Source: a virus
DNA: 22,283 bases
Direction: 5' to 3' (one strand)
Virus record (IMG/VR): IMGVR_UViG_3300025000_001858
Span: 1-22,283 of that record
The notes beneath the pieces are model-generated. The model had not been told where the DNA came from. It did not search any database and was given only the letters and a program-made list of their open reading frames with translations. The first letter of the stretch is position 1. The number at the start of each line of letters is the position of its first letter. Positions 1,407 to 22,283 of this stretch are shown in pieces. A program made the position numbers and the translations under genes.

Positions 1407-3793
1407 CAGGGAGTCCTCGCGCGGTAGTCACCGAACGGGTTCCGGCGCATCCACAGGGCCAGCCGGTGGAGGAGGATGCGCGCACCGGTCCCGAGGATTC
1501 CCAGACGGATCCCGACCCTCTCGTCCTTCACGTTGCACGAGATGTGCTGCGTCCCCCTCTGCGGCGTGTAGAGGGTCGGGGCCGGAAGGGCGACCGGGAT
1601 GCCGTCGGCCTTGACGAGGAGGGGGGTCACGAGGCCGTCGCCCTCCGCGTTCAGGGTGAGCCGACGGAAGAGCCCGAGCGAGCCGTCCTCAGCGCCGATC
1701 TTCCCCGTCTCGTAGGCCCACGAGATTGCCGCGGGGTTGAACCCAGTCCAGTCCTCCGTCGCGGACGGATCGAGGTACCCGACTTGGTTGTTGACGCCGT
1801 AGAGCTTCGGGACCCAGAGCTCCGGGGTCGATTCCCCGCCGCGGCGCCCCACGGTGATTCCGCGCGCCTCGAGCGGCCACACCGACCAGCGACGGCCTCC
1901 TGCCTGGCCGGCCGGACCGAAGCCCCCCGCATAGTCCAGGACGTAGATCTTGTCGTTGTGCGTCGAGGTCCCCGTGGGCACCGCGAGGTAAACCCTCCGG
2001 GCGATCTCGTCCACCGCAACGTCGATCTGCCACGCCTCGGGCCAGTTGATGGCGGCCCACTCGACAGGGATCTCCTGTGCGAGGTTCCCGTCGGTACCGA
2101 CCGCCGCGCCCTGGAAGAGCCAGCACCCGGCTCGGTTCACGAGGATCTTGAAGTCGGGACCGTGCCCGATCGACCGGCGCCCGCAGGCACCGAGGAGATC
2201 CGACACCTTGTCGATCGGCCACTCGGACGGATGGCCCGAGCTCTTCTGCGTCACCCAGAGGCTCGAGTCTTTGGCGACGTAGAACCGAGCGTCCCATTCG
2301 AACCCGAGCCACGCCGTCTCACCGTCCGCGGGGCCGAAGGTCTGAGCCCCGTAGAGGGTGTCAATCGACCGGGCCGCGTACGGCTTTGTCCACCACACGG
2401 TTGACTTGTGCGTGGTGTTGGCCGGATCAAACGGCTCGCAGAGGAGGACCGTGACGTACTCGAGATTCACGCCGGGCCCGATCCCCTCGAAGAAGAGCTT
2501 GACGTCGTTCGAGAAACTCCCCGTACAGATGAGCTCCGACACGTAGATGGTGTTGGCGGTCAGCGGGGCCAGGTCCACAGTCGCGGACGCGGATCCAGTC
2601 GTTCCCGACACGCCGTACTTCAGGCTCCCGGACGCGGCCCCGGAGCTCTTGATGTAGGCGATGCGCACGCCGAAGGTCCCACTCCATCCCCCCGTGGCGA
2701 GCGAGGCGATCCCCGGAAGGTCCTTCACCAGCGATCCGAGGTTCAGCAGCCTGGCCGGGGTCGCAGCGACACCGTCGAAGCGGATCACCGCCTCCCCGCC
2801 GCCCAGGCCGTAGAGGGTGCCCGCCGTCACAGTCCAGCCCGGCGGCACAACGCCGGGCAGCGACCCGTAGCCGTATCCGAAGTCCGTCCCCCTCGAGCCG
2901 CCCTCTTTCCACCCGGCAACGGCGCGGTGCTTCTCCCCAAAGTACGCCACCCGTCCCGCGTAGGGAACGGCCAGCGCCGGGAACTTCGCGCTACGCAGCC
3001 GCGGCTGGTCGTTCACGAGCTCCATGCGCTGGAGATCGGCGTCCGCGAGTGTGAAAAGGAAGGTGAAGCCCACGGCCTCCAGGCTCACCGCCCGCCGGAA
3101 CTCCGTCTCGGAATCGGACGTCGTGATCCACACCGACGCGAACGCCACGTCGGAGGTTTGCGGGATGCTGGCGCCCGGAGTGATCGTCAGGAGATCCCCG
3201 GTAAGCGCGTTGACCGCCACCGGCTCTCCCAGGGGTCCCTCTGAGCCGTCCGTGAAGGTGACGTTGAGAGCGACCCACTTCTGCCCGCCAGTGACGCTTC
3301 CCGCCCCTCCCGTCCGCACAACGGTCGGAGGTCCCGGTCTCGCGAACCGGAAAAGACTGAACCCGAGACTGTACGTCGTCCATTCCCCGTACCCGTTTGC
3401 CCCTGATTCGCAGACGATCGCGCGCTCGAAGAATTGCCCCGCCGTGAGGATGAGCGGAGCGTTCCCATGCGGACTGCAGGGAAGCACGGTTGAGTAGACG
3501 TACCCTGGGTCGAGGCTGATTAGGTACCCCTCCCCGCTCGCATACCCCACCACCAGCTGACGCCGTGGCGAAGTGCCCAGGCGCGTGTTGACGACGAGCA
3601 GGCTTCTCGCCGGAGAGCTGTTCGCCCCCGTGCTCGCAAACCCCGTGATCCCGGGCCTCGAGCCAACGCACGATTCCGGGAAGACGCAGTTCTCCGCCGT
3701 CACCGCCGAGTACGGCGCGAGGTCGTTAGGAGGGGTCGACGAGTCGATCCCCCCGAACCACTCCAGCGCCAGGGGCCGAGTCTCCTGGAACAT
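1406..3793 (-). CDS. Tail nozzle / hub-like protein with beta-propeller features and an inserted domain
   Basis: This is a 795-residue protein. An upstream in-frame start exists, but ATG at 3793 is chosen because it lies just after the preceding stop (3798-3800) and the translation then opens with a typical hub pattern, FGGIDSSTPPNDLAPYSAV followed by NCVFPESCVGSRPG. Phage tail nozzle and hub proteins often open this way: GG, a loop, an N at a turn, then R-x-G. The region around ARFYVAKDSSLWVTQ (502-516), WPIDKVSDLLGACGRRS (525-541) and the NRAGCWLFQG segment that follows fits repeated propeller blades. Residues about 305-460 look like an inserted jelly-roll domain (see findings). The length is close to the T7 tail tubular protein B, which sits in an equivalent place after the adaptor. 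Exact family is uncertain, but a role as the distal tail tube of a short tail is likely. Confidence 0.65.
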   Translation of the reverse strand: MFQETRPLALEWFGGIDSSTPPNDLAPYSAVTAENCVFPESCVGSRPGITGFASTGANSSPARSLLVVNTRLGTSPRRQLVVGYASGEGYLISLDPGYVYSTVLPCSPHGNAPLILTAGQFFERAIVCESGANGYGEWTTYSLGFSLFRFARPGPPTVVRTGGAGSVTGGQKWVALNVTFTDGSEGPLGEPVAVNALTGDLLTITPGASIPQTSDVAFASVWITTSDSETEFRRAVSLEAVGFTFLFTLADADLQRMELVNDQPRLRSAKFPALAVPYAGRVAYFGEKHRAVAGWKEGGSRGTDFGYGYGSLPGVVPPGWTVTAGTLYGLGGGEAVIRFDGVAATPARLLNLGSLVKDLPGIASLATGGWSGTFGVRIAYIKSSGAASGSLKYGVSGTTGSASATVDLAPLTANTIYVSELICTGSFSNDVKLFFEGIGPGVNLEYVTVLLCEPFDPANTTHKSTVWWTKPYAARSIDTLYGAQTFGPADGETAWLGFEWDARFYVAKDSSLWVTQKSSGHPSEWPIDKVSDLLGACGRRSIGHGPDFKILVNRAGCWLFQGAAVGTDGNLAQEIPVEWAAINWPEAWQIDVAVDEIARRVYLAVPTGTSTHNDKIYVLDYAGGFGPAGQAGGRRWSVWPLEARGITVGRRGGESTPELWVPKLYGVNNQVGYLDPSATEDWTGFNPAAISWAYETGKIGAEDGSLGLFRRLTLNAEGDGLVTPLLVKADGIPVALPAPTLYTPQRGTQHISCNVKDERVGIRLGILGTGARILLHRLALWMRRNPFGDYRARTP

Positions 3794-3797
3794 CAGA

Positions 3798-4148
3798 TCA
3801 GACCAGCTTCGGCAGGACGATCTCGATGTTGACGACGTCTGCCGTGACTCCCGCCGGGTAGGCACCCGCGGCCAGGTCCGCGCCTGTCGCGATCACCGTG
3901 ACGGGGACCTTTCCCACGTCCAGCGTCGCGCCGGCCGTGAAGCCGTAGAAGTGCCCGGAGTCCCCCTTCCCCCAGATCCTGACCTGGGCGGCCTGGTTCT
4001 TCGAGACCAGGAGGCCCGGGATCGTCGTGAGGTTCAGGGTGTCCCCCGCGGCCGGGTAGTTCGCCGAGAAGGCGAGCGTCCCGCGAACCACGGGCACCTT
4101 CCCGCTGAAGTCGGAGAGCTTGGGGTTGACCGTGAGAGCGAGTGCCAT
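3798..4148 (-). CDS. Small structural protein, function unknown
   Basis: This 116-residue protein starts at ATG with GGAGG six bases upstream (ACGGAGGCCCCGATG), a strong site. It is Gly/Ala/Thr/Val-rich and beta-like throughout, with FTAGATLDVGKVPVTVI near the middle and no Cys, signal peptide or membrane segment. Such small beta proteins between connector and tail genes are often head decoration or tail completion proteins, but nothing here is diagnostic. It lies between the adaptor and nozzle-like genes. Confidence 0.7.
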   Translation of the reverse strand: MALALTVNPKLSDFSGKVPVVRGTLAFSANYPAAGDTLNLTTIPGLLVSKNQAAQVRIWGKGDSGHFYGFTAGATLDVGKVPVTVIATGADLAAGAYPAGVTADVVNIEIVLPKLV

Positions 4149-4159
4149 CGGGGCCTCCG

Positions 4160-4840
4160 TCAGGTGATGTAGGGGAGCCGGGTGCGGCTCGGGTGGTAGA
4201 ACTTCCGGCGGAGCACCCGCCGTTGCTTCTGTCTGATGGCCGTCGCGTAGAGGTTCTCCCTCTCTCGGGCGTAGTCACGCTCGAACTTCGCCTCGGCTGC
4301 CGACGCCCCCTTCGCCCCGCAGACGAGCGCCGCCGTGAGAAGCGCCACGGCCTCCGCGGAGTCGATCATCGGGAGAGCGTCGGTCGGGAGCGCCACCTCG
4401 GGCGGGACGCTCAGGTAGTCGATCTGCACTTCCCGGTCCGCGGTCGCGCCGGCGAAGCGGATCGCCCCACCCTGCCACGACCAGGACCCGAGAAACTCCC
4501 TCTGCTCCGTGTTCGCGAGGTCCTCACGAACCTGCACCATCCCGCGCCAGTCCGAGGCCAGGGTCGAGCCAGCCGCCCTCTCGTGGAGGACCACCGGCTG
4601 GACGAAGTCGGCCGGGAGCGGTGGCGTGCTCGTGAGGGTCAGCGCCGTGACCCCCGCCGGCACCGTGACGGTCGCCTCGAGCCGGTACCTCTCGATCCCC
4701 TTCGACCGGAGGAACCCATCGAGACGGCTCTGCGCGATCCCCACGTACGGCAGGAGCACCGAGTCCTGGTACTCCTGCACGTCGAGGTCGTTCAGGAGCG
4801 CCCTGACCTTCCCCGTCACGGTGGCGAGGGTGTCGGCCAT
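4160..4840 (-). CDS. Head-tail adaptor (connector) protein, tail tubular A / gp4-like
   Basis: This 226-residue protein fits the phage adaptor class that binds beneath the portal and joins it to the tail. The N-terminus is a helical bundle pattern (VTGKVRALLNDLDVQEYQDS, residues 8-27, then LLPYVGIAQSRLDGFLRSKG), followed by a beta domain (RYRLEATVTVPAGVTALTLT). A C-terminal helix with charged repeats (EAKFERDYARERENLYATAI) leads to a basic tail (KQRRVLRRKFYHP). The length is near the 196 residues of T7 gp11. Position between capsid-side genes and the nozzle-like gene supports the call. The ATG is one base past the previous stop (TAG, then TC, then ATG), with only a weak AGGT nearby. Confidence 0.7.
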   Translation of the reverse strand: MADTLATVTGKVRALLNDLDVQEYQDSVLLPYVGIAQSRLDGFLRSKGIERYRLEATVTVPAGVTALTLTSTPPLPADFVQPVVLHERAAGSTLASDWRGMVQVREDLANTEQREFLGSWSWQGGAIRFAGATADREVQIDYLSVPPEVALPTDALPMIDSAEAVALLTAALVCGAKGASAAEAKFERDYARERENLYATAIRQKQRRVLRRKFYHPSRTRLPYIT

Positions 4841-10498: not shown

Positions 10499-12916
10499 CT
10501 ACATCACCGGGGCGCCGAGGCCGGGCGCCGTGAGGTCCTGCCCGGGGCCTACGGGGTTCGTCATCGGGTTCATCTCGCGCGCGTCGGGCCTTGGGCCTCC
10601 CGGCCTGGGAGGGCCGCCAGCGGCCGGCGCAGGCCCAGGGGCAGGCATCGGAGGCGCGGAGAGCATCCCCACCAGCGCCTGGCGTTGCTGGATCGCCATG
10701 AGGTGCTCGCGCCAGTGAGCCTTCACGTTCTCCCACCCGGCACTGTTCTGCAGGCGCACCTTCCCGCCCTCGCGGCTGTTGGCCCAGAGGTCGATCGCCT
10801 GGATGTGCGCCGCGTGGTCCTCGAGCTCCACGTCCACCGGCACCGTCGAAGACGGCATCCCGGTGTAGGGGTCGAGCGAGGGGGCCTCGTCGAGGAGGGC
10901 CTCGATTTCCCGGCGCTGCTGCTCCCGCGCGTCCTGCCCGGGGAAGCGGAGGTCCCGGTGCCCGAGGTTCTCCGCCGTGATCGCCTCGTTCTGGGGGCCG
11001 AGGACGAGGCCCTGGAACGCGGCGTTCGCGGAGTATTCGAACCAGGCGGCCCGGCGCTCGGCGGGCCCCATCGGGAACCCGGCATCGTCGTCGCTCTCGA
11101 TCCGGATCTCCCCCTTCAGGGAGTCGATCGAGATGGTCTGCTTTCCCCACTCGCCCGAGTCGTTCTGCGTCCCTACCTCGACGTCGTCGTACCCGTCCCG
11201 CGCGTAGATCTCCACCGCCTGGAGGTCGCTCTCGTTCGAAAGCGCCTCGAGCTCCTTCCACGGGATGCCGTGACGCATCAGCCCCTGGTCGCGCATGAGG
11301 CGGTAGCCGCCGAGGGTTCGGCCGGCGCCGCCCGCGTTACCACCCCACAGGGCCGGGACGATTCCGCTGCGCTGCTGCGCCCTCTCGCCCCCCAGCTCCT
11401 TCTCGAGGTTGCCGACCTCGGACGGGAGGTTCGCGGTTGGAGTCGGCACCACGGCGTCCCGGAGGCTCCCGCCGTCCGCCGGGGTCTTCGCCTGGTAGAT
11501 GAGCCCCGGCTGGATGCGCCCCGCGGCGTACTCCTCGGCGCCGAGGATGTCGTTGTTGACGATCATCGCGGGGATGCCCTGCCGCGCCCCCTCCACCCGG
11601 AGGTTGAGGAGCTCGTTCGCGGTCTGCTGGAGCTCCCAGGTGGCGCTCCCCGCCGAGACGACCCCCGAGCCGTGCCCCGGGAACGTGAACCGGAAGGTCC
11701 AGTGATCGTCCATCGACTCGTCGAAGGCCTCGCAGAGGACGTCGCCCATGAAGACGAGGAGGGCCCCCTCCCCGAACTTCTCCTTCAGCTTCGCCTTCAC
11801 CCCGGGGTCCCCGACCTCCTCGAGCTGCCAGGGGCGGAGCCAGGCCCTCTCGTAGCAGAGGAGGTGATCGGGCCGCCGACTCGATCCGTAGACCAGGCCG
11901 CGCCGGGCCTCCGTCTCGTAGCTCTCCGAGGAGGACCCGCCGCTCCCCTTGTCGGTCAGCTCATCCGCCTTCTGGGGGTAGAGAGCCTTCGCGTGCGCCC
12001 TGGGGACGTCCTCCACGAGGGAGACGTACCCGCACTCCCTCACCAGGCGCGCCCCGGGGGTCCGCCGCATCTCGATCAGCCCGTGCGCGGTCTTCACCAC
12101 GCCGGCCTTGGGGATCTCGAGCATCCGCGCGACCCGGGGAACGGGGCCGTACTCCGGAGGTATCGGGCTCCCCATCTCGAGCGGGGCTCCGCAGTCGACG
12201 CACGCCGGCGCCTCCATCGGGGAGGTCTCTCCGCACATCGCGCATCGCATGGACGCGGGGCTCGTCTCCCCGATCTCGATCGTGATCTCGGGCTCGGTCG
12301 TCGACCCGAATCGCGCCTTGTCCGCACGCAGCCGCGTGTAGACCGCGCCGAACCCGTCGTTCCAGAAGTAGTAGCCGAGCCAGCGCCGGATGGTCAGGGA
12401 GTCGGTCGCCTTGTTCACCCACTCCACGAACCGCTCCCCCTCCTCGGCCGCGATCACGTCGCGCGGCTTGTCCGGGTCTCCGGGGGCGAAGCTGGTCTGC
12501 ACCGGGTTGGCGATCATCAGTGCCACGAAGTCGAGCCCGTACGGCGTGTAGAAGTTGTCGATGTGGAACGAGGGGAGGTCCTGGTCGGGCTCCGCCTCGT
12601 CCTCGAGCTGGCGGATGACGTCGACGTACCGCCTCTCACCCGGATCCCAGGCCAGGAGCTGCCGGCCGTTCCACCCTTCCCGGCGCTCGAGAGCCGGGCG
12701 GATCTCCTCCATCCGGAACCCGTCGTCGGAGTCCTTGATCTTCGTCCAGATCGCCTTGAGGGCGGCCTCTTCCTCCTCGTCGAGCTCCACCGCGGCCCGG
12801 TCGTACGTCGGGGCGTGGTCGTCTCCAACGAGGATGCCCCGCTGCTCCTCGCGGGCCTCGTCCTCTCCACCCTCAGAGCCCGTGAGCGTCGCCAGGAGTC
12901 CCTCGAGGCCCTCCAT
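10499..12916 (-). CDS. Portal protein with inserted zinc ribbon
   Basis: This 805-residue protein is the dodecameric ring at the head vertex through which DNA enters and leaves. The size suits the large P22-like portal class. N-terminal residues 1-55 are acidic and likely disordered. Recognisable portal-type segments include YTPYGLDFVALMIANP (123-138), LTIRRWLGYYFWNDGFGA (174-191) and the wing-to-stem helices after SATWELQQTANELLNLRVEG. An insert at 225-242 holds CAMC and CVDC with a 10-residue spacer, a zinc-ribbon pattern. The C-terminus is Pro/Gly-rich (MPAPGPAPAAGGPPRPGGPR). The start ATG shares one base with the previous stop (TGATG), with AAGGAG eight bases upstream. It is downstream of terminase and upstream of scaffold and capsid, with an unusual gene block in between. 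Confidence 0.8.
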   Translation of the reverse strand: MEGLEGLLATLTGSEGGEDEAREEQRGILVGDDHAPTYDRAAVELDEEEEAALKAIWTKIKDSDDGFRMEEIRPALERREGWNGRQLLAWDPGERRYVDVIRQLEDEAEPDQDLPSFHIDNFYTPYGLDFVALMIANPVQTSFAPGDPDKPRDVIAAEEGERFVEWVNKATDSLTIRRWLGYYFWNDGFGAVYTRLRADKARFGSTTEPEITIEIGETSPASMRCAMCGETSPMEAPACVDCGAPLEMGSPIPPEYGPVPRVARMLEIPKAGVVKTAHGLIEMRRTPGARLVRECGYVSLVEDVPRAHAKALYPQKADELTDKGSGGSSSESYETEARRGLVYGSSRRPDHLLCYERAWLRPWQLEEVGDPGVKAKLKEKFGEGALLVFMGDVLCEAFDESMDDHWTFRFTFPGHGSGVVSAGSATWELQQTANELLNLRVEGARQGIPAMIVNNDILGAEEYAAGRIQPGLIYQAKTPADGGSLRDAVVPTPTANLPSEVGNLEKELGGERAQQRSGIVPALWGGNAGGAGRTLGGYRLMRDQGLMRHGIPWKELEALSNESDLQAVEIYARDGYDDVEVGTQNDSGEWGKQTISIDSLKGEIRIESDDDAGFPMGPAERRAAWFEYSANAAFQGLVLGPQNEAITAENLGHRDLRFPGQDAREQQRREIEALLDEAPSLDPYTGMPSSTVPVDVELEDHAAHIQAIDLWANSREGGKVRLQNSAGWENVKAHWREHLMAIQQRQALVGMLSAPPMPAPGPAPAAGGPPRPGGPRPDAREMNPMTNPVGPGQDLTAPGLGAPVM

Positions 12917-13275
12917 CAGGTGTTCTCCTTCGCGGCCTCGTCCAGCGTCCTGCGCGCGGCCGCGGCTTGCGCGAAGCGCCGCTCGAGGTCACGCTTCGCC
13001 CGGCTCGGTGAAACGATCCGGAAGGACGGCTGCGGGGGCCGCGGCTGCACCCCGTGGGAAGAAACCGGCCGCGTGCCGTCGTGCGTCGTCTCCAGCTCGG
13101 GAATCCCCTCGTGCTGGCCCGCCGCCGGCTCCGCGGCCTGTCTCAGCGTCTCCACCGTCTCCTCGAGACGGGCGAGGCGCCGGTCGACGAGGATGTTCTG
13201 CGCCACGATCGCCGCCACGGTCAGCGACTGCACGACGATCAGCACGGTGCCGAGGAGAGCGAGGTCGCCGCTCAT
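12916..13275 (-). CDS. Single-pass membrane protein with coiled coil, possible lysis or envelope factor
   Basis: This 119-residue protein opens with a hydrophobic span (LALLGTVLIVVQSLTVAAIV, residues 5-24) and then a heptad-like charged helix (DRRLARLEETVETLRQAAEP). A Pro-rich linker and a basic helix (RAKRDLERRFAQAAAARRTL) complete it. The layout of one N-terminal helix and a long soluble coiled coil resembles inner-membrane spanins and phage membrane-anchored unknowns. The ATG overlaps the stop of its neighbour (ATGA), and AGGG lies just upstream. Its stop overlaps the portal start. It could instead be a virion ejection factor. The family is not recognised. Confidence 0.65.
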   Translation of the reverse strand: MSGDLALLGTVLIVVQSLTVAAIVAQNILVDRRLARLEETVETLRQAAEPAAGQHEGIPELETTHDGTRPVSSHGVQPRPPQPSFRIVSPSRAKRDLERRFAQAAAARRTLDEAAKENT

Positions 13276-13667
13276 CGCGCCCTCAGCTCCCGGTTGATCA
13301 CCGTCTTGAGCTCAACGATGGTCTCCCGGAGGCTCCGGACGTCCTGCTGTAAGCCGTCGATCTGGATCGTGAGACGCCGGATCTCGGCGTCCTTCGCCTT
13401 GTCCGAGGCGTGCTGCGCGTCCGCCGTCCGCACGAGCTCCATGTGGGCCCGCGGGTTGATCTCGTGAAGCTGGATGAGCTGGTTCACCCGCTGGTCCAGC
13501 GCCCAGACCAGAATCCCCGCGAGGGAAATGCCGAGAGCCGCCGTGATCGCCACGACCGTCTTCCAGAGGTCCTTCATCGGAACCACCTGCGGCGGGCGCG
13601 GGTCCCTCGAGTGGGTGAACTGGTACTCCTTCCCGTCGGACGCCGTCACGCGATCACCTCGGAACAT
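13272..13667 (-). CDS. Membrane-anchored coiled-coil protein with multiple candidate starts
   Basis: The annotated start gives 131 residues. The first 30 are polar (VTASDGKEYQFTHS, then DPRPP), followed by MKDLWKTVV and a membrane span (AITAALGISLAGILVWAL, about 40-57). A long coiled coil runs to the C-terminus (IRRLTIQIDGLQQDVRSLRE). The pattern resembles an inner-membrane spanin. Three starts have plausible ribosome sites: ATG 13667 (GAGGA at five bases; overlaps the upstream gene by 14), GTG 13649 (GAGGTG) and ATG 13577 (AGGTGG). The last would give a 101-residue form starting just before the membrane span. I chose 13667 because 14-base overlaps occur elsewhere here. It forms a pair with the next gene, which has a similar layout. 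Confidence 0.6.
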   Translation of the reverse strand: MFRGDRVTASDGKEYQFTHSRDPRPPQVVPMKDLWKTVVAITAALGISLAGILVWALDQRVNQLIQLHEINPRAHMELVRTADAQHASDKAKDAEIRRLTIQIDGLQQDVRSLRETIVELKTVINRELRAR

Positions 13668-13905
13668 CTCCGTCCTCGTCGACGGTCACCGGCCCGAAGA
13701 ACCACCCGAACACGATGGTCCGGGCCGCCTTCCGCCCCCACCCGGCCAGCGCCGACACGAGGAAGAGGACGAGCGTCCTCCACGAGAGCTCCTCGGCCAT
13801 GGCCCAGGCGGAGAGAGCGTCCGTGATGGCGATCGCGAGGCCCGCGTAGGCCCCCACCATCGCTCTCGAGTGCCACCACGGAATCGCCGCGCCGGGAGAC
13901 GTCAC
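13654..13905 (-). CDS. Two-helix membrane protein, holin-like
   Basis: This 83-residue protein starts at GTG. It has two hydrophobic segments: AMVGAYAGLAIAITDALSAW (about 15-34) and TLVLFLVSALAGWG (about 44-57), the second followed by a basic turn (RKAAR) and a further hydrophobic stretch (TIVFGWFFGP). The C-terminus is charged (DEDGD). Size, two or three membrane spans and charged termini fit small phage holins, which make the hole that triggers lysis, but holins share little sequence. Context with a lipoprotein and coiled-coil membrane proteins supports a lysis cassette. GAGGA lies only one base before the GTG, and AAGGA about ten bases before. No lysin gene is seen nearby, so the call stays tentative. 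Confidence 0.5.
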   Translation of the reverse strand: MTSPGAAIPWWHSRAMVGAYAGLAIAITDALSAWAMAEELSWRTLVLFLVSALAGWGRKAARTIVFGWFFGPVTVDEDGDVPR

Positions 13906-13909
13906 GTCC

Positions 13910-14116
13910 TCAGTCCTTGATGTCGCGGTCCGCCTGGTCGATCAGGGCGGCGGTCAGGAGCAGCGGCGATCCGTCCGCGGCCCCGAAGGCGCGCGCGTAG
14001 TCCACCGCGTTCCTCTCCCCCTTCGGAGGGAGCACCTTGATCGCCTCGTCCACGACCTTCGCGAGTTCGAGAGCCTTCATCGCCAGAGCGAATGCCTCAT
14101 GTGCGTCGAGTGCCAC
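13910..14116 (-). CDS. Small unknown protein (68 residues)
   Basis: It starts at GTG with a very strong site, AAGGAGG, six bases upstream. The site overlaps the coding end of the preceding gene. The product is helical, Ala- and Leu-rich: AHEAFALAMKALELAKVVDE then AIKVLPPKGERNAVDYARAF. There is no membrane span, Cys or signal. It lies between two tiny genes and the holin-like gene. I do not recognise it. The strong ribosome site argues that it is real. Confidence 0.6.
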   Translation of the reverse strand: MALDAHEAFALAMKALELAKVVDEAIKVLPPKGERNAVDYARAFGAADGSPLLLTAALIDQADRDIKD

Positions 14117-14117
14117 G

Positions 14118-14282
14118 TCATGCCTCCTTCGGGGGTCTGAGCGGAGGAAGCGACGCGAGGGCTTTCCTCACATCCGCCGCCTTCGGGTTGTTCATTCCGA
14201 CGAGCTTCGCGAGAGCGACGCGCCCCTCCGGCGAGTTGCCCAGGAGGAGGAGCTGCTCGAGCACGGCGAGGGCTTCCTTCAC
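14118..14282 (-). CDS. Small unknown protein (54 residues)
   Basis: The chosen start is GTG 14282, because AGGTGA (formed by the stop of the previous gene) lies five bases before it. The open frame reaches further upstream, but that part is a shadow of the Pro/Thr-rich gene. The product VKEALAVLEQLLLLGNSPEG continues through an amphipathic helix and ends LRPPKEA. The N-terminal helix is leucine-rich, but short for a membrane span and flanked by acidic residues. Function is unknown. Confidence 0.55.
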   Translation of the reverse strand: MKEALAVLEQLLLLGNSPEGRVALAKLVGMNNPKAADVRKALASLPPLRPPKEA

Positions 14283-14286
14283 CGCG

Positions 14287-14715
14287 TCACCTGATCCTCG
14301 TGAGCCGGTACGCCGCAGGCACCGTCCCAGGCACATCCGAGTGGTAGAGGAGGACCTCCACCTCCGCACCGTCCGGCCACCGCAGCACTCCGCCCACCGG
14401 CGGCGTCCCAACCAGCATCGGCGCCGGCTGCAGGCGCAGGAGCGGCGTCCGCTCGCAGGCGCACGGTGGGGTCGTCCCCCCAGGCAGCGGCGTTGCCGTA
14501 GCCGTAGGGGGCGAAGGGGAAGGGGTAGGGCTTGGGGATGCGGCCGGCGTCGGTGTCGCTGTGGCCGCCGGCCGCGGGGTCGGTGTCGGAGTAGCCGTGG
14601 CGGGAGGCCGGGGCGTGGGGTAGACGGGCCGTCGCGTGGGGGTCGGCGCCGGCACCCACTGCGCCACCGCCGTCCCCGCCACGAGAACCGCCAGGAGCCA
14701 CGCCCACCGGTTCAC
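14287..14715 (-). CDS. Secreted proline/threonine-rich protein with signal peptide
   Basis: This 142-residue protein starts at GTG in a GTGA overlap with the previous stop. The N-terminus MNRWAWLLAVLVAGTAVAQ is a good Sec signal with likely cleavage after AVA. Next comes a long low-complexity region of Pro, Thr, Ala and Ser (repeats like PTPTPRPAATATPTP, about residues 22-78). A short globular end contains CAC (near 87-89) and WPDGAEVEVLLYHSDVPG. Such Pro/Thr regions act as extended spacers across the periplasm or cell wall. An outer spanin-like or envelope-spanning role is possible, but no lipobox is seen at the cleavage site. It stands beside a lipoprotein and membrane proteins. The longer open frame reaching 14952 is a shadow of the neighbouring gene. 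Confidence 0.6.
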   Translation of the reverse strand: MNRWAWLLAVLVAGTAVAQWVPAPTPTRRPVYPTPRPPATATPTPTPRPAATATPTPAASPSPTPSPSPPTATATPLPGGTTPPCACERTPLLRLQPAPMLVGTPPVGGVLRWPDGAEVEVLLYHSDVPGTVPAAYRLTRIR

Positions 14716-15212
14716 TCGCCCGCGATCCCCGGCGTTCCGCCGACCGCGTACTCGTTCTCGAGCCAGCTCTGGATCGTCTGCCCGGCGAAGGCCTCGCGGG
14801 CCCGCGCGTTCGCGCCGAACGTGATCCCGTCGTACTTCGCGACCTGGATGAGCCCGGTCAGGAGCGCGAAGCCCGTGAAGGCCGGGTCGAGCATCCGGTA
14901 CTTCTCGAGGAGCTCGGGGTCGAGGACCTTCAGGCGATCGATCTCTCCCCACGCCTCGTCCTCGCCCGAGCCATGCCTGGCGAGGTTGCCCTGGTAGCCG
15001 ACGCAGTGGTTCGCGCGGCGCACCGCCTCGAGGACGTCCGGGCCCGCCATCCGGCTCCCGAGCCCGTACCTCGGGGCCCCCGGGCCGGGACGGTTGAAGA
15101 TGAAGAGGGTTCCCGAGGGGACGGGGTCGGGGGTCCCCAGAAGGTCGATGAGCTTCTCCTCGAGAGCTTCGACTCTCTCCTCGAGGGACTTGAGGTCTTC
15201 GGATTTCGCCAT
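14712..15212 (-). CDS. Unknown protein with N-terminal coiled coil (166 residues)
   Basis: The ATG has GAGGAG just before the upstream stop, at good spacing, so the pair is coupled. Residues 2-25 form an acidic heptad pattern (KSEDLKSLEERVEALEEKL). The middle contains SGTLFIFNRPGPGAPRYG and a possible helix DVLEAVRRANHCVGYQGNL. The C-terminal region has FTGFALLTGLIQVAKYDGIT, which is mildly hydrophobic but not a clear membrane span. No lysozyme or amidase catalytic pattern is visible. It ends within the start of the secreted Pro/Thr-rich gene. Its place in the block suggests a linked role, but I assign none. Confidence 0.6.
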   Translation of the reverse strand: MAKSEDLKSLEERVEALEEKLIDLLGTPDPVPSGTLFIFNRPGPGAPRYGLGSRMAGPDVLEAVRRANHCVGYQGNLARHGSGEDEAWGEIDRLKVLDPELLEKYRMLDPAFTGFALLTGLIQVAKYDGITFGANARAREAFAGQTIQSWLENEYAVGGTPGIAGE

Positions 15213-15614
15213 CTACTTCTCCTCGGGCAGTGACCGGACCGCCTTCGCTTCGGCCGTCCGGAGTTCCTTCAGTTGCTTCGGCAGGGCCCCCTTACGCTCC
15301 AGGGCCTCAACCGCTTCCTCGAGCCGCTTCCGCCACCCGGCGAGCGCCGCGTGCGCCTCTCGGCACCCCGCTCCCGCCACCTCGACGCACCTCTCCTCGT
15401 ACCGCGCGTTCGCCCAGGCCCACCCGTTCGCGGACGTGAGGACCTTCTGCTCCGACGTCGCACAGCCGGCGGCCAGGAAGGCCAGCACGGCGAGCGAAAA
15501 GGTGAGGGGGCGACCGGGGAGGTGGGACCGGCCGCCCCCTCGGGGGGGGAGAGAACCCGGCGCCTCGGGTGACAGCCCGACGAACCGGGGGAGGAGACCC
15601 AGGGAGCGCCTCAC
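15213..15614 (-). CDS. Putative outer-membrane lipoprotein
   Basis: The protein has a lipobox: LTFSLAVLAFLAAGC, with the modified Cys followed by ATS, so no Asp at +2 and outer-membrane sorting is expected in Gram-negatives. The mature part is about 80 residues and helical (EEAVEALERKGALPKQLKEL), with two extra Cys (ERCVEVAGAGC). The start is uncertain. GTG 15614 overlaps the terminase stop (GTGA) and is chosen, but it leaves about 36 residues before the hydrophobic core, longer than usual, in a G/C-rich stretch with hairpins. TTG 15629 would be longer still, and the next GTG lies inside the core. An outer spanin is one possibility. Exclusion lipoproteins are another. Neither is shown. Confidence 0.6.
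   Translation of the reverse strand: MRRSLGLLPRFVGLSPEAPGSLPPRGGGRSHLPGRPLTFSLAVLAFLAAGCATSEQKVLTSANGWAWANARYEERCVEVAGAGCREAHAALAGWRKRLEEAVEALERKGALPKQLKELRTAEAKAVRSLPEEK
15535..15570. other. Two short G/C-rich inverted repeats near the lipoprotein start
   Basis: A run of five C is followed by TC and then eight G (15535-15549). Next is ACCCG, six bases, CGGGT (15555-15570). Both could form hairpins in the transcript between terminase and the lipobox. No T-rich tail follows, so they are not clear terminators. They lie inside the chosen reading frame, so they may be only codon bias. Confidence 0.35.
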
Positions 15615-17116
15615 CGGCCCCTCCGCCAACGACCGATGGTCGTCGGGAGGTAGCGGGGTCGCGCCGTCTTCTTCTTCTCTTCGGCGCGGATCTTCTCGAA
15701 CATCAGGTGACGCTCGGTCAGGTCGTGCACCGGGATCTTTTGTTCCTCAACCCGGGCGACCACACGCTCGCGCAGCGTCGGCTCCGGGCCCCTCGAGCGA
15801 TCCACGTACTCGGTGGCGTACCGCCCTGCGTCGCACCCGTGGTTGTTCACGTCGACGGGGGTCTCCTTGATGGGCTTGCCGTCGGGCGCCCTCGGCCAGG
15901 CGTAAACCTCGAGCTCGTCCACCGTGCAGGTGGGGAGGTGCCGCCCCGCGAGGTCCGCGTCCCGCTCCGCGATCGAGCCCTCGACGAAGAACATCCGGGG
16001 CTTCCCGTCCCCGGCGACCCGGAGGCGCGCCTGGACCTTCTGGATGCCGGCCCCGATCTCCTTGATCGCCGCCCGCGTCCGCACTCCCCGGCGGTAGACC
16101 GTCGCCCGATCCTCGAGGTCGTGGTCCGCCACGATCGCCTCGAGGACCATGTCTCCCGGTCCCTCTTCACCCGGCGGGCGGAGTTTCTCGGACTTCAGGA
16201 GAGCCTTGATGTCCTCCGCGAAGTCCTCCGCGAGGCGCTGCGTGCGGTAGAGCTCCCGGACGAGGTACATCCGCCCGTCCCCGTCGATCCCCCAGAGCTG
16301 GAAGACCGAGGGGTTGTTGAAGCCCCAGTCGATCGAGCCGATCCACCGTGTGATCTTTGGGAGCTTGTCCCTCGAGATCAGGTGGATGCCACGGTCGAAA
16401 CCGTCGTAGACGATTCCCTCCGCGGCCACCCACTGCCCGTCCCGCAGGCGCGCACGCCGCACCCCGGTGAGGGCGTCGAGAGCCATGAGGCTCCGCGCCC
16501 CCTGCTCGGTCATCTCCCCGTCGTCGTCGAAAAGGGTGGGGTTGTCCTGGTGCTTCGAGTGCAGGACCCGGAGCGACTCGCGGTGCAGGATCCAGTGGCT
16601 CGGGGGCCCCGGGTTGCAGTCCCCGAAGATCATCGGGGTCTTCGTCTTCGCCCCTCGGCCCGTGCAGCGGGTCGTCAGGATCTCCCAGTCCTCGAGCGTG
16701 AGCTCCTCGGTCTGGTTCACGACGATCCAGTCCCGCTCCCCCGAGAGGACCTTCCCGGGACGGTCCATCCCGCCGATGTAGAGGCGGGCCCCGTTCTCGT
16801 ACTCGTAGAACTCCGGGTGCGACCCGCCGTAGGTCGTCACGCCGCCGCGGATCTTGATGATCCGCTCGTAGGTCTCTAAGACGGTCCCCGTCATGTCGGC
16901 CCGCACCTTCCGAACGAGCGCCGCGCGAGCCCTGGGAGTCGCACGCAGGAGCGTGTCGAGCCTCCAGATCACCAGCCAGGTCTTCCCCGTCTCAGCCGGC
17001 CCCGCCAGCATCCACTCGTGCTGCGTGACACTCAGCGCCTCGAGGGCCGCGCCCCGGAACGTCGGCACCCACGCACGCTTCCGCTTCCGGAGCTCCTGCT
17101 CCGCGGCGACCGCCAT
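15611..17116 (-). CDS. terL: Terminase large subunit (ATPase and nuclease)
   Basis: This 501-residue protein pumps DNA into the procapsid and cuts the concatemer. The Walker A motif is GPAETGKT (39-46). Walker B with catalytic acids is DWIVVNQTEE (129-138, Glu137/138). The coupling-type motif GDCNPGPPSHW follows (165-175). The nuclease domain has the expected acidic residues: Asp263 in SIDWGFNNPS, Asp331/333 in VADHD, and Asp429 in HGCDAGRYATEY. The C-terminus is basic (KKKTARPRYLP). ATG 17116 is chosen because GAGGTG lies six bases upstream, beside the previous stop; the in-frame start at 17173 would overlap the small subunit by 47 bases. It pairs with the small subunit gene 10 bases upstream. 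Confidence 0.95.
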   Translation of the reverse strand: MAVAAEQELRKRKRAWVPTFRGAALEALSVTQHEWMLAGPAETGKTWLVIWRLDTLLRATPRARAALVRKVRADMTGTVLETYERIIKIRGGVTTYGGSHPEFYEYENGARLYIGGMDRPGKVLSGERDWIVVNQTEELTLEDWEILTTRCTGRGAKTKTPMIFGDCNPGPPSHWILHRESLRVLHSKHQDNPTLFDDDGEMTEQGARSLMALDALTGVRRARLRDGQWVAAEGIVYDGFDRGIHLISRDKLPKITRWIGSIDWGFNNPSVFQLWGIDGDGRMYLVRELYRTQRLAEDFAEDIKALLKSEKLRPPGEEGPGDMVLEAIVADHDLEDRATVYRRGVRTRAAIKEIGAGIQKVQARLRVAGDGKPRMFFVEGSIAERDADLAGRHLPTCTVDELEVYAWPRAPDGKPIKETPVDVNNHGCDAGRYATEYVDRSRGPEPTLRERVVARVEEQKIPVHDLTERHLMFEKIRAEEKKKTARPRYLPTTIGRWRRGR

Positions 17117-17126
17117 GCGGAGCACC

Positions 17127-17768
17127 TCAGTGCTCGGCGGCGACGCTTGCGTCGAGCCTTGTGCGGAGAGCATTCAGTTCCTCGTCGGTCATCGCCTCGA
17201 GGTCGAAGGAGCGAACCGCCTCTGGGATGAGGGGCTTCCCACCCTTCCCCGTCAGCTCGGTCCTCTCCGCCCACTCGGGCCGGTGCTTCGCCAGTGCCTT
17301 GTGGAGGGTCCTCTCGAACTGGACCGCTTCCTGGGCCACCCGCTCGCCCTCGAAGTAGATCCCCTTCGTCATCTTCCCGAGTGCGAGGTTCATGGCGTGC
17401 AGCTCGAGGTCGTCGACCCCGGCCTGCACCGCCGTCTCCCACGCTTCCGCGAACTCGGGGTTCTGCTTCCTCTCCTGGTACGCCATCGCTCGGCTGATCG
17501 ACGCCGCGTCCGCGGCCGGCTGGATCACGCCAACGGACTCCCGGAGAGCCTTCAGGAAGATGGGGCGCCAGTTGTACGGCTTCGGGCCGGGCTCCCCCGC
17601 GCGTGGGAGAGTCAAGACTTTCCGAGTCCCTGCCGCCTTCGCCGGGGCCGCCAGGACCTTCCGGGCTCCGCTCCGCCCCCTGGCCTTCGCCTTGGCCTGC
17701 GCGGCCGACTTCTTCGCCGCCTTGGCCTTCGGCCGTGACGTCGGACTCGACTGGCGGATCTTGGTCAC
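17127..17768 (-). CDS. terS: Terminase small subunit
   Basis: This 213-residue protein precedes terL, as expected for the DNA-recognition subunit. Residues 1-50 are a basic Lys/Ala/Arg-rich tail (SRPKAKAAKKSAAQAKAKAR). A helix-turn-helix-like domain follows at about 68-115 (RPIFLKALRESVGVIQPAAD, then AASISRAMAYQERK), ending in the frequent NPEFAEAWETA helix seen in small terminases. A conserved charged region (LALGKMTKGIYFEGERVAQE) may form the oligomer core. The C-terminus (AMTDEELNALRTRLDA) would contact the large subunit. The start is GTG, with only GGGGG as a weak site inside a hairpin, which suggests controlled translation. Confidence 0.85.
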   Translation of the reverse strand: MTKIRQSSPTSRPKAKAAKKSAAQAKAKARGRSGARKVLAAPAKAAGTRKVLTLPRAGEPGPKPYNWRPIFLKALRESVGVIQPAADAASISRAMAYQERKQNPEFAEAWETAVQAGVDDLELHAMNLALGKMTKGIYFEGERVAQEAVQFERTLHKALAKHRPEWAERTELTGKGGKPLIPEAVRSFDLEAMTDEELNALRTRLDASVAAEH

Positions 17769-22252: not shown

Positions 22253-22271
22253 GACTTCGTCCTCCCGGCCA

Positions 22272-22283
22272 CCCCCCCCCCCC
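22272..22283. repeat. Homopolymer run of 12 C at the window end
   Basis: The right edge is a run of at least 12 C after CCA. On the minus strand this is poly-G just before the first gene. It may be a real tract, a sequencing artefact or the start of a longer one. Confidence 0.85.

Follow-up and report, generated by a model that had tools for sequence, protein, structure and literature searches.

A Conserved Block of Predicted Envelope Genes between Terminase and Portal-like Genes, a Candidate for Part of a Split Phage Lysis System

Results

The virus record IMGVR_UViG_3300025000_001858 was analyzed whole, as a window of 22,283 bases. It is a fragment of a virus genome, and every likely gene in it lies on the minus strand. 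The two ends, a CCACC repeat (positions 1–60) and a C tract (22270–22283), are probably assembly breaks, and the repeat cuts into a Gly/Pro-rich gene. A gene identified by eye as GNAT-like (364–780) follows the tail genes, as it does in several relatives (L102, L103, and L106). Eight genes, designated A to H, occupy positions 12916–15629 on the minus strand, between the gene for the terminase large subunit (TerL) and a portal-like gene. TerL (15611–17173, minus strand), the upstream flank, matches phrog_5653 (E = 1e-22) and other TerL families, and its relatives are 73–88% identical. Neighbors from A to H overlap or are separated by at most 4 bases, except for a 14-base overlap of F with G and a 19-base overlap of TerL with A; H overlaps the portal-like gene by a single base. 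Only TTG at 15629 and GTG at 15614 could serve as the start codon of A.

The downstream flank (10499–12916, minus strand) has no family match of its own. Two of its 21 aligned homologues match the head–tail adaptor family phrog_332 (best, 2e-5) and one matches the portal family phrog_156, all weakly. The gene is called portal-like because of these weak homologue matches and its position ahead of scaffold-like and major-capsid-like genes. Residues 225–243 form a zinc-ribbon-like insert (CxxC ... CxxCG) that is found in at least 90% of the 21 homologues and is unusual for a portal; the match of the portal profile to PDB sequences is confined to this insert. A fold prediction made from two sequences had a pLDDT of 31 and was unusable.

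An earlier note, made from the window sequence, described eight coupled genes between terminase and portal, and the same eight positions recur in the same order, with a similar overlap pattern, in a 42-kb virus record (G001; locus L003 covers the block). TerL and the portal-like protein of this relative are 73% and 71% identical to those of the window. This ordered recurrence in an independent record shows, on comparative grounds, that the eight ORFs are genuine genes and not chance ORFs. A short contig (L001) is 88–100% identical to the window across TerL, A, and the beginning of B.

Identity between the window and G001 is 71% for A, 58% for B, 53–55% for C, 72% for D, 68–69% for E, and about 39–41% for H, and these six alignments score 21 to 74 standard deviations (z) above shuffled sequences. 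Codon comparison of the two viruses gives dN/dS values of 0.30 for A, 0.75 for B, 0.37 for C, 0.39 for D, 0.44 for E, and 0.78 for H, with 0.33 for TerL and 0.37 for the portal-like gene as flanks. These values point to purifying selection that is clear on A, C, D, and E and weaker on B and H. For F and G, alignment with the G001 counterparts is no better than chance (z of 1.9 and 0.0, respectively), but both retain their position, gene overlaps, and predicted layout. The counterpart of F (L003, 8712–9008) is a clear two-segment protein and that of G (L003, 8993–9400) has the same layout as G; neither has sequence similarity to its window equivalent. F and G are therefore best described as apparent positional replacements of like layout, for which homology is not demonstrable. 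Exchange for unrelated proteins of like layout would be typical of fast-changing lysis genes.

The envelope features listed in the earlier note are present: a lipobox in A, a signal peptide in C, two hydrophobic segments in F, and one such segment each in G and H, together with a heptad signal. Hydropathy was judged with simple home-made scripts, one of which used simplified energy values. Gene A (15213–15629) encodes a predicted lipoprotein and candidate o-spanin, with the lipobox LAAG/C and a mature part of ~83 residues counted from the lipobox Cys. The corresponding motifs are AVG/C in L003 and LAS/C in L111, a third phage; the Cys is not followed by Asp, and an outer-membrane-type lipoprotein signal, as expected of an o-spanin, is thus predicted from the sequence. 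Cysteines occupy mature positions 1, 26, and 34 in both the window and L003. Across the forward frames of the block this is the only lipobox, in the window and G001 alike; in particular, no embedded o-spanin lies within G or H. No hydrophobic segment follows the lipobox, so A lacks the C-terminal membrane segment of a unimolecular spanin.

F (13654–13905), a protein of 83 residues and a candidate class II holin, has two hydrophobic segments that could form a helical hairpin. In the window and in the G001 counterpart, both segments outscore every stretch of three soluble controls, and basic residues lie outside the hairpin; the window protein is only moderately hydrophobic, below the Kyte–Doolittle cutoff of 1.5. 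G (13272–13667), a candidate i-spanin, has one strong predicted membrane segment (residues 38–56), a charge of +2 before and −1 after it, a C-terminal coiled coil with a heptad score above that of shuffled sequences, and no Cys. Its L003 counterpart has the charges reversed (−1/+2) and one Cys. H (12916–13275) is a second predicted single-pass membrane protein, with its segment at residues 7–25 and a coiled-coil heptad signal above shuffles.

The remaining proteins are a soluble one, a secreted one, and two small helical ones. B (14712–15212; 166 residues) comprises an N-terminal helix followed by a domain; it lacks a signal peptide, matches no PHROGs or Pfam family, and has no significant hit in the PDB, and a fold prediction from three sequences was unusable (pLDDT of 38). 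C (14287–14715) has a hydrophobic N-terminus predicted to be a signal peptide, a Pro/Thr-rich linker, and a short conserved C-terminal domain. The earlier note had proposed C as part of an envelope bridge; C has no further membrane anchor, and nothing marks it as a bridge. D (14118–14282; 54 residues) and E (13910–14116; 68 residues) belong to a conserved core with A, described below. As the earlier note had remarked, nothing in the block resembles an endolysin: none of the eight proteins matches a lysin family in PHROGs or Pfam. Holin and spanin families in the same databases likewise gave no match. Searches with B, E, G, and H by tblastn found nothing in 50,697 phage records. Peptide-pattern scans are insensitive, as the window B pattern missed the 58% identical copy in L003, and the small number of relatives is therefore a lower bound.

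The G001 record continues past the point at which the window stops, with genes for a 3168-residue polyvalent protein, a tailspike, a GH108 endolysin, and, on the other strand, an integrase. The polyvalent protein (L042, 4928–14434) carries ddrB-ParB, PBECR5 nuclease, LPD38, and GGDEF (diguanylate cyclase) domains. The endolysin matches PF05838 (E = 5e-21) and phrog_315 (E = 1e-29) and lies at 35.55–36.16 kb, ~26 kb from the block at 7.07–9.73 kb; it is observed in the relative, the corresponding part of the genome being absent from the window contig. No holin or spanin gene stands beside it, where just ~115 bases precede the integrase. Outside the block, scanning G001 for hydropathy and lipoboxes turned up no further late-oriented short gene that convincingly encodes a membrane protein or lipoprotein. 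Any holin and spanin functions of G001 therefore most likely reside in the block, since the scan found no other candidate; this exclusion argument, drawn from simple scripts and one record, is not proof. Beyond the integrase, on the strand opposite to the late genes, lies a DUF4136-like lipoprotein gene (L043, 325–894, minus strand) that scores below the Pfam cutoff and is possibly a lysogenic-conversion gene.

Conservation of gene order, complete in G001, extends in part to a third phage. A 7.7-kb contig (L111), found by a search with the lipoprotein, encodes a lipoprotein 41% identical to A, followed directly by homologues of D (z about 13) and E (z of 7–8 against shuffles). The D homologue abuts A, with B and C not between them, and next after the three comes a protein of 74 residues that is weakly hydrophobic over two stretches. 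The L111 terminase belongs to other families than the window TerL; its gene (1981–4530) also bears a large insertion resembling an intein. A, D, and E thus travel together in all three phages, across two types of terminase. The L111 lipoprotein has no tblastn match in the 50,697 phage records, weak lipoprotein matches occur in two bacterial genomes, and the A family, with no match in PHROGs or Pfam, is apparently undescribed.

With a profile of the portal-like protein, homologues were detected in 60 of the 399 genomes scanned, all from one class in the phylum to which an Acidobacteria genome belongs, and head-gene order is the same at many of these loci. The assumption of the earlier note that terminase and portal genes are usually adjacent is misleading for this family: in the roughly ten Acidobacteriota relatives with both genes recognizable, the gap generally holds about 0.3–2.2 kb of other small genes, mostly soluble. 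A–H are absent from every fetched Acidobacteriota locus. A spacer between TerL and portal is accordingly ordinary for the group, but the envelope content of the spacer in the window is not. In L082 and L091, a short gene with two hydrophobic segments lies directly upstream of TerL. Two genomes, G837 and G807 (L094 and L084), have an SLT transglycosylase gene and small membrane, holin-like genes upstream of the portal gene; in G553, a membrane coiled-coil gene comes after an SLT gene. Within this group, it is normal to find small genes close to TerL and portal, some of them of lysis type. No recognizable TerL was present within about 13–15 kb further upstream in G837 and G807; their portal, capsid, tailspike, SLT transglycosylase, and holin-like genes, located in bacterial genomes, may be remnants or a domesticated particle.

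The terminase has a different distribution from that of the head genes. A genome-contig scan with the portal-like protein found no match, whereas the scan with TerL found siphovirus-like MAG contigs with unrelated neighbors. The window TerL is 56–58% identical to those of two such contigs (L055 and L056), whose other genes are unmatched, and at most 34% identical to those of the prophages that share its portal and capsid genes (L082–L101). Because TerL is nearer to the MAG contigs than to these prophages, the terminase has probably been exchanged, and because the neighbors of its MAG matches are unrelated, TerL is of little use for recognizing phages of this type. The prophage survey sampled one phylum, so these relatives do not fix the host of the window phage.

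Discussion

We infer the function of the block from these comparisons. Its best explanation, to which we give slightly less than even odds in its favor, is that the block, situated between terminase and portal within the late operon, supplies the half of a split lysis system that acts at the membrane and the outer membrane. In such a system, F would collect in the inner membrane and open it when infection ends, as a holin does, and the opening would release the GH108 muramidase onto the wall. After the wall has been cut, the outer-membrane lipoprotein A and the inner-membrane coiled-coil protein G would together bridge the periplasm and disrupt the outer membrane in the manner of PseT.2/PseT.3 of T4 and Rz1/Rz of lambda. 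D and E would probably be small partners of A, and B, C, and H may be passengers or regulators. This reading draws on synteny, selection, a distant GH108 gene without a neighboring holin or spanin, the lipobox and cysteines of A, the two hydrophobic segments shared by F, its L003 counterpart, and the short genes ahead of TerL in L082 and L091, and the set of A, D, and E with a short hydrophobic gene after it in L111. Against it stand the missing holin and spanin family matches, the spacing of A and G, the charges and Cys of the L003 G counterpart, and the moderate hydropathy of F; in addition, eight genes exceed what lysis needs.

Comparison with known systems yields both likenesses and differences. 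At least one periplasmic Cys is present in 507 of 528 known spanin pairs, and the commonest combination, which T4 also has, is none in the i-spanin and two in the o-spanin (PMC6139136). A has two periplasmic cysteines besides the lipid-bearing one and the window G has none. As in the separated T4 pair PseT.3/PseT.2, G combines one membrane segment with a coiled coil, and the pair does not lie beside holin and endolysin genes; the T4 spanin genes are likewise located away from both (PMC6139136). Two-component spanin genes are embedded, overlapping, or adjacent, with a maximum separation of roughly 1 kb (PMC6139136), whereas A ends at 15213 and G begins at 13667, ~1.5 kb away with five genes between them. 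The candidate pair also differs from that of T4 in that family searches detected no sequence similarity. Like the lambda-type S-R-Rz-Rz1 cassette of podovirus CSP3 (PMC10269572), the block gathers a holin-like hairpin, a lipoprotein, and a membrane coiled coil in one late unit; unlike that canonical contiguous cassette, it includes no endolysin, which lies ~26 kb away in G001, and it has the additional genes B, C, D, E, and H. The sister Acidobacteriota prophages G837, G807, and G553 also pair an SLT gene with small membrane or membrane coiled-coil genes, upstream of portal in G837 and G807, but they have no A–H homologues and carry the SLT enzyme in place of GH108. The lysis-type block with a spanin-like pair suggested in the earlier note thus remains the best reading, by exclusion in G001, the lipobox and cysteines of A, and the topology of the window G, with the new lysin that it included set aside. 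A lysin and spanin pair elsewhere in the phage, named there as a refutation, was found in half: the lysin lies elsewhere in G001, and no spanin or holin outside the block was found.

The gap between TerL and portal could instead be a cargo site, holding mixed genes without a joint function, perhaps one or two lysis genes among unrelated small late genes. The gaps of about ten Acidobacteriota relatives do hold other small genes, mostly soluble and often with a short coiled coil, rather than A–H; B and C separate A from D in the window, but D directly follows A in L111; and F and G have been exchanged between close relatives. However, G001 keeps all eight positions, even to the overlap pattern, and A, D, and E remain together in L111 despite another terminase, and we regard a cargo site as unlikely, if a serious alternative. 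The constancy of these three genes raises a further idea, which we hold to be quite unlikely: that A, D, and E form the center of a new type of machine, one that disrupts the outer membrane or spans the envelope, in which a lipoprotein acts with two small helical proteins and a replaceable membrane protein in place of a lone Rz/Rz1-type pair.

A trans-envelope complex with a role other than lysis, such as superinfection exclusion or a surface change, might be built from A, C, and the membrane coiled-coil proteins. The block does bring together proteins predicted to be lipid-anchored, secreted, and located in the inner membrane, and G001, a temperate phage, encodes an integrase and, separately, a DUF4136-like lipoprotein. 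Yet the overlaps tie the genes into the late packaging and head operon and not to the integrase, and G001 would be left with no recognized holin or spanin candidate, so that we consider such a complex improbable. Still less probable is that the proteins belong to the virion or, as the earlier note had suggested as one option, form a DNA-ejection conduit through the envelope. The location among packaging and head genes would suit this role, and membrane coiled coils could serve ejection, but sister phages with the same head module have none of A–H, G001 has its own giant 3168-residue polyvalent protein and a tailspike further along, and the proposal has no family support. That a gene of the block, such as B, for which no relatives are known outside this phage group, encodes a lysin of a new type is very improbable, as B has neither a signal peptide nor a lysin match and the close relative G001 has an ordinary GH108 endolysin.

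Conclusions

Of the surveyed phages that infect Gram-negative hosts, about 13% lack a recognizable spanin (PMC6139136); one explanation that has been suggested is wide separation of the lysis genes. Read as half of a split lysis system, the conserved lipoprotein and membrane block far from the endolysin would be a concrete example for such phages. It would be unusual in combining a lysis-accessory block distant from the endolysin with a lipoprotein family that seems not to have been described and with the two small conserved proteins D and E. The window phage shares its head genes with Acidobacteriota prophages, and lysis genes in phages of this group have received little study. The A family, outside PHROGs and Pfam, may be used as a marker for finding similar blocks.
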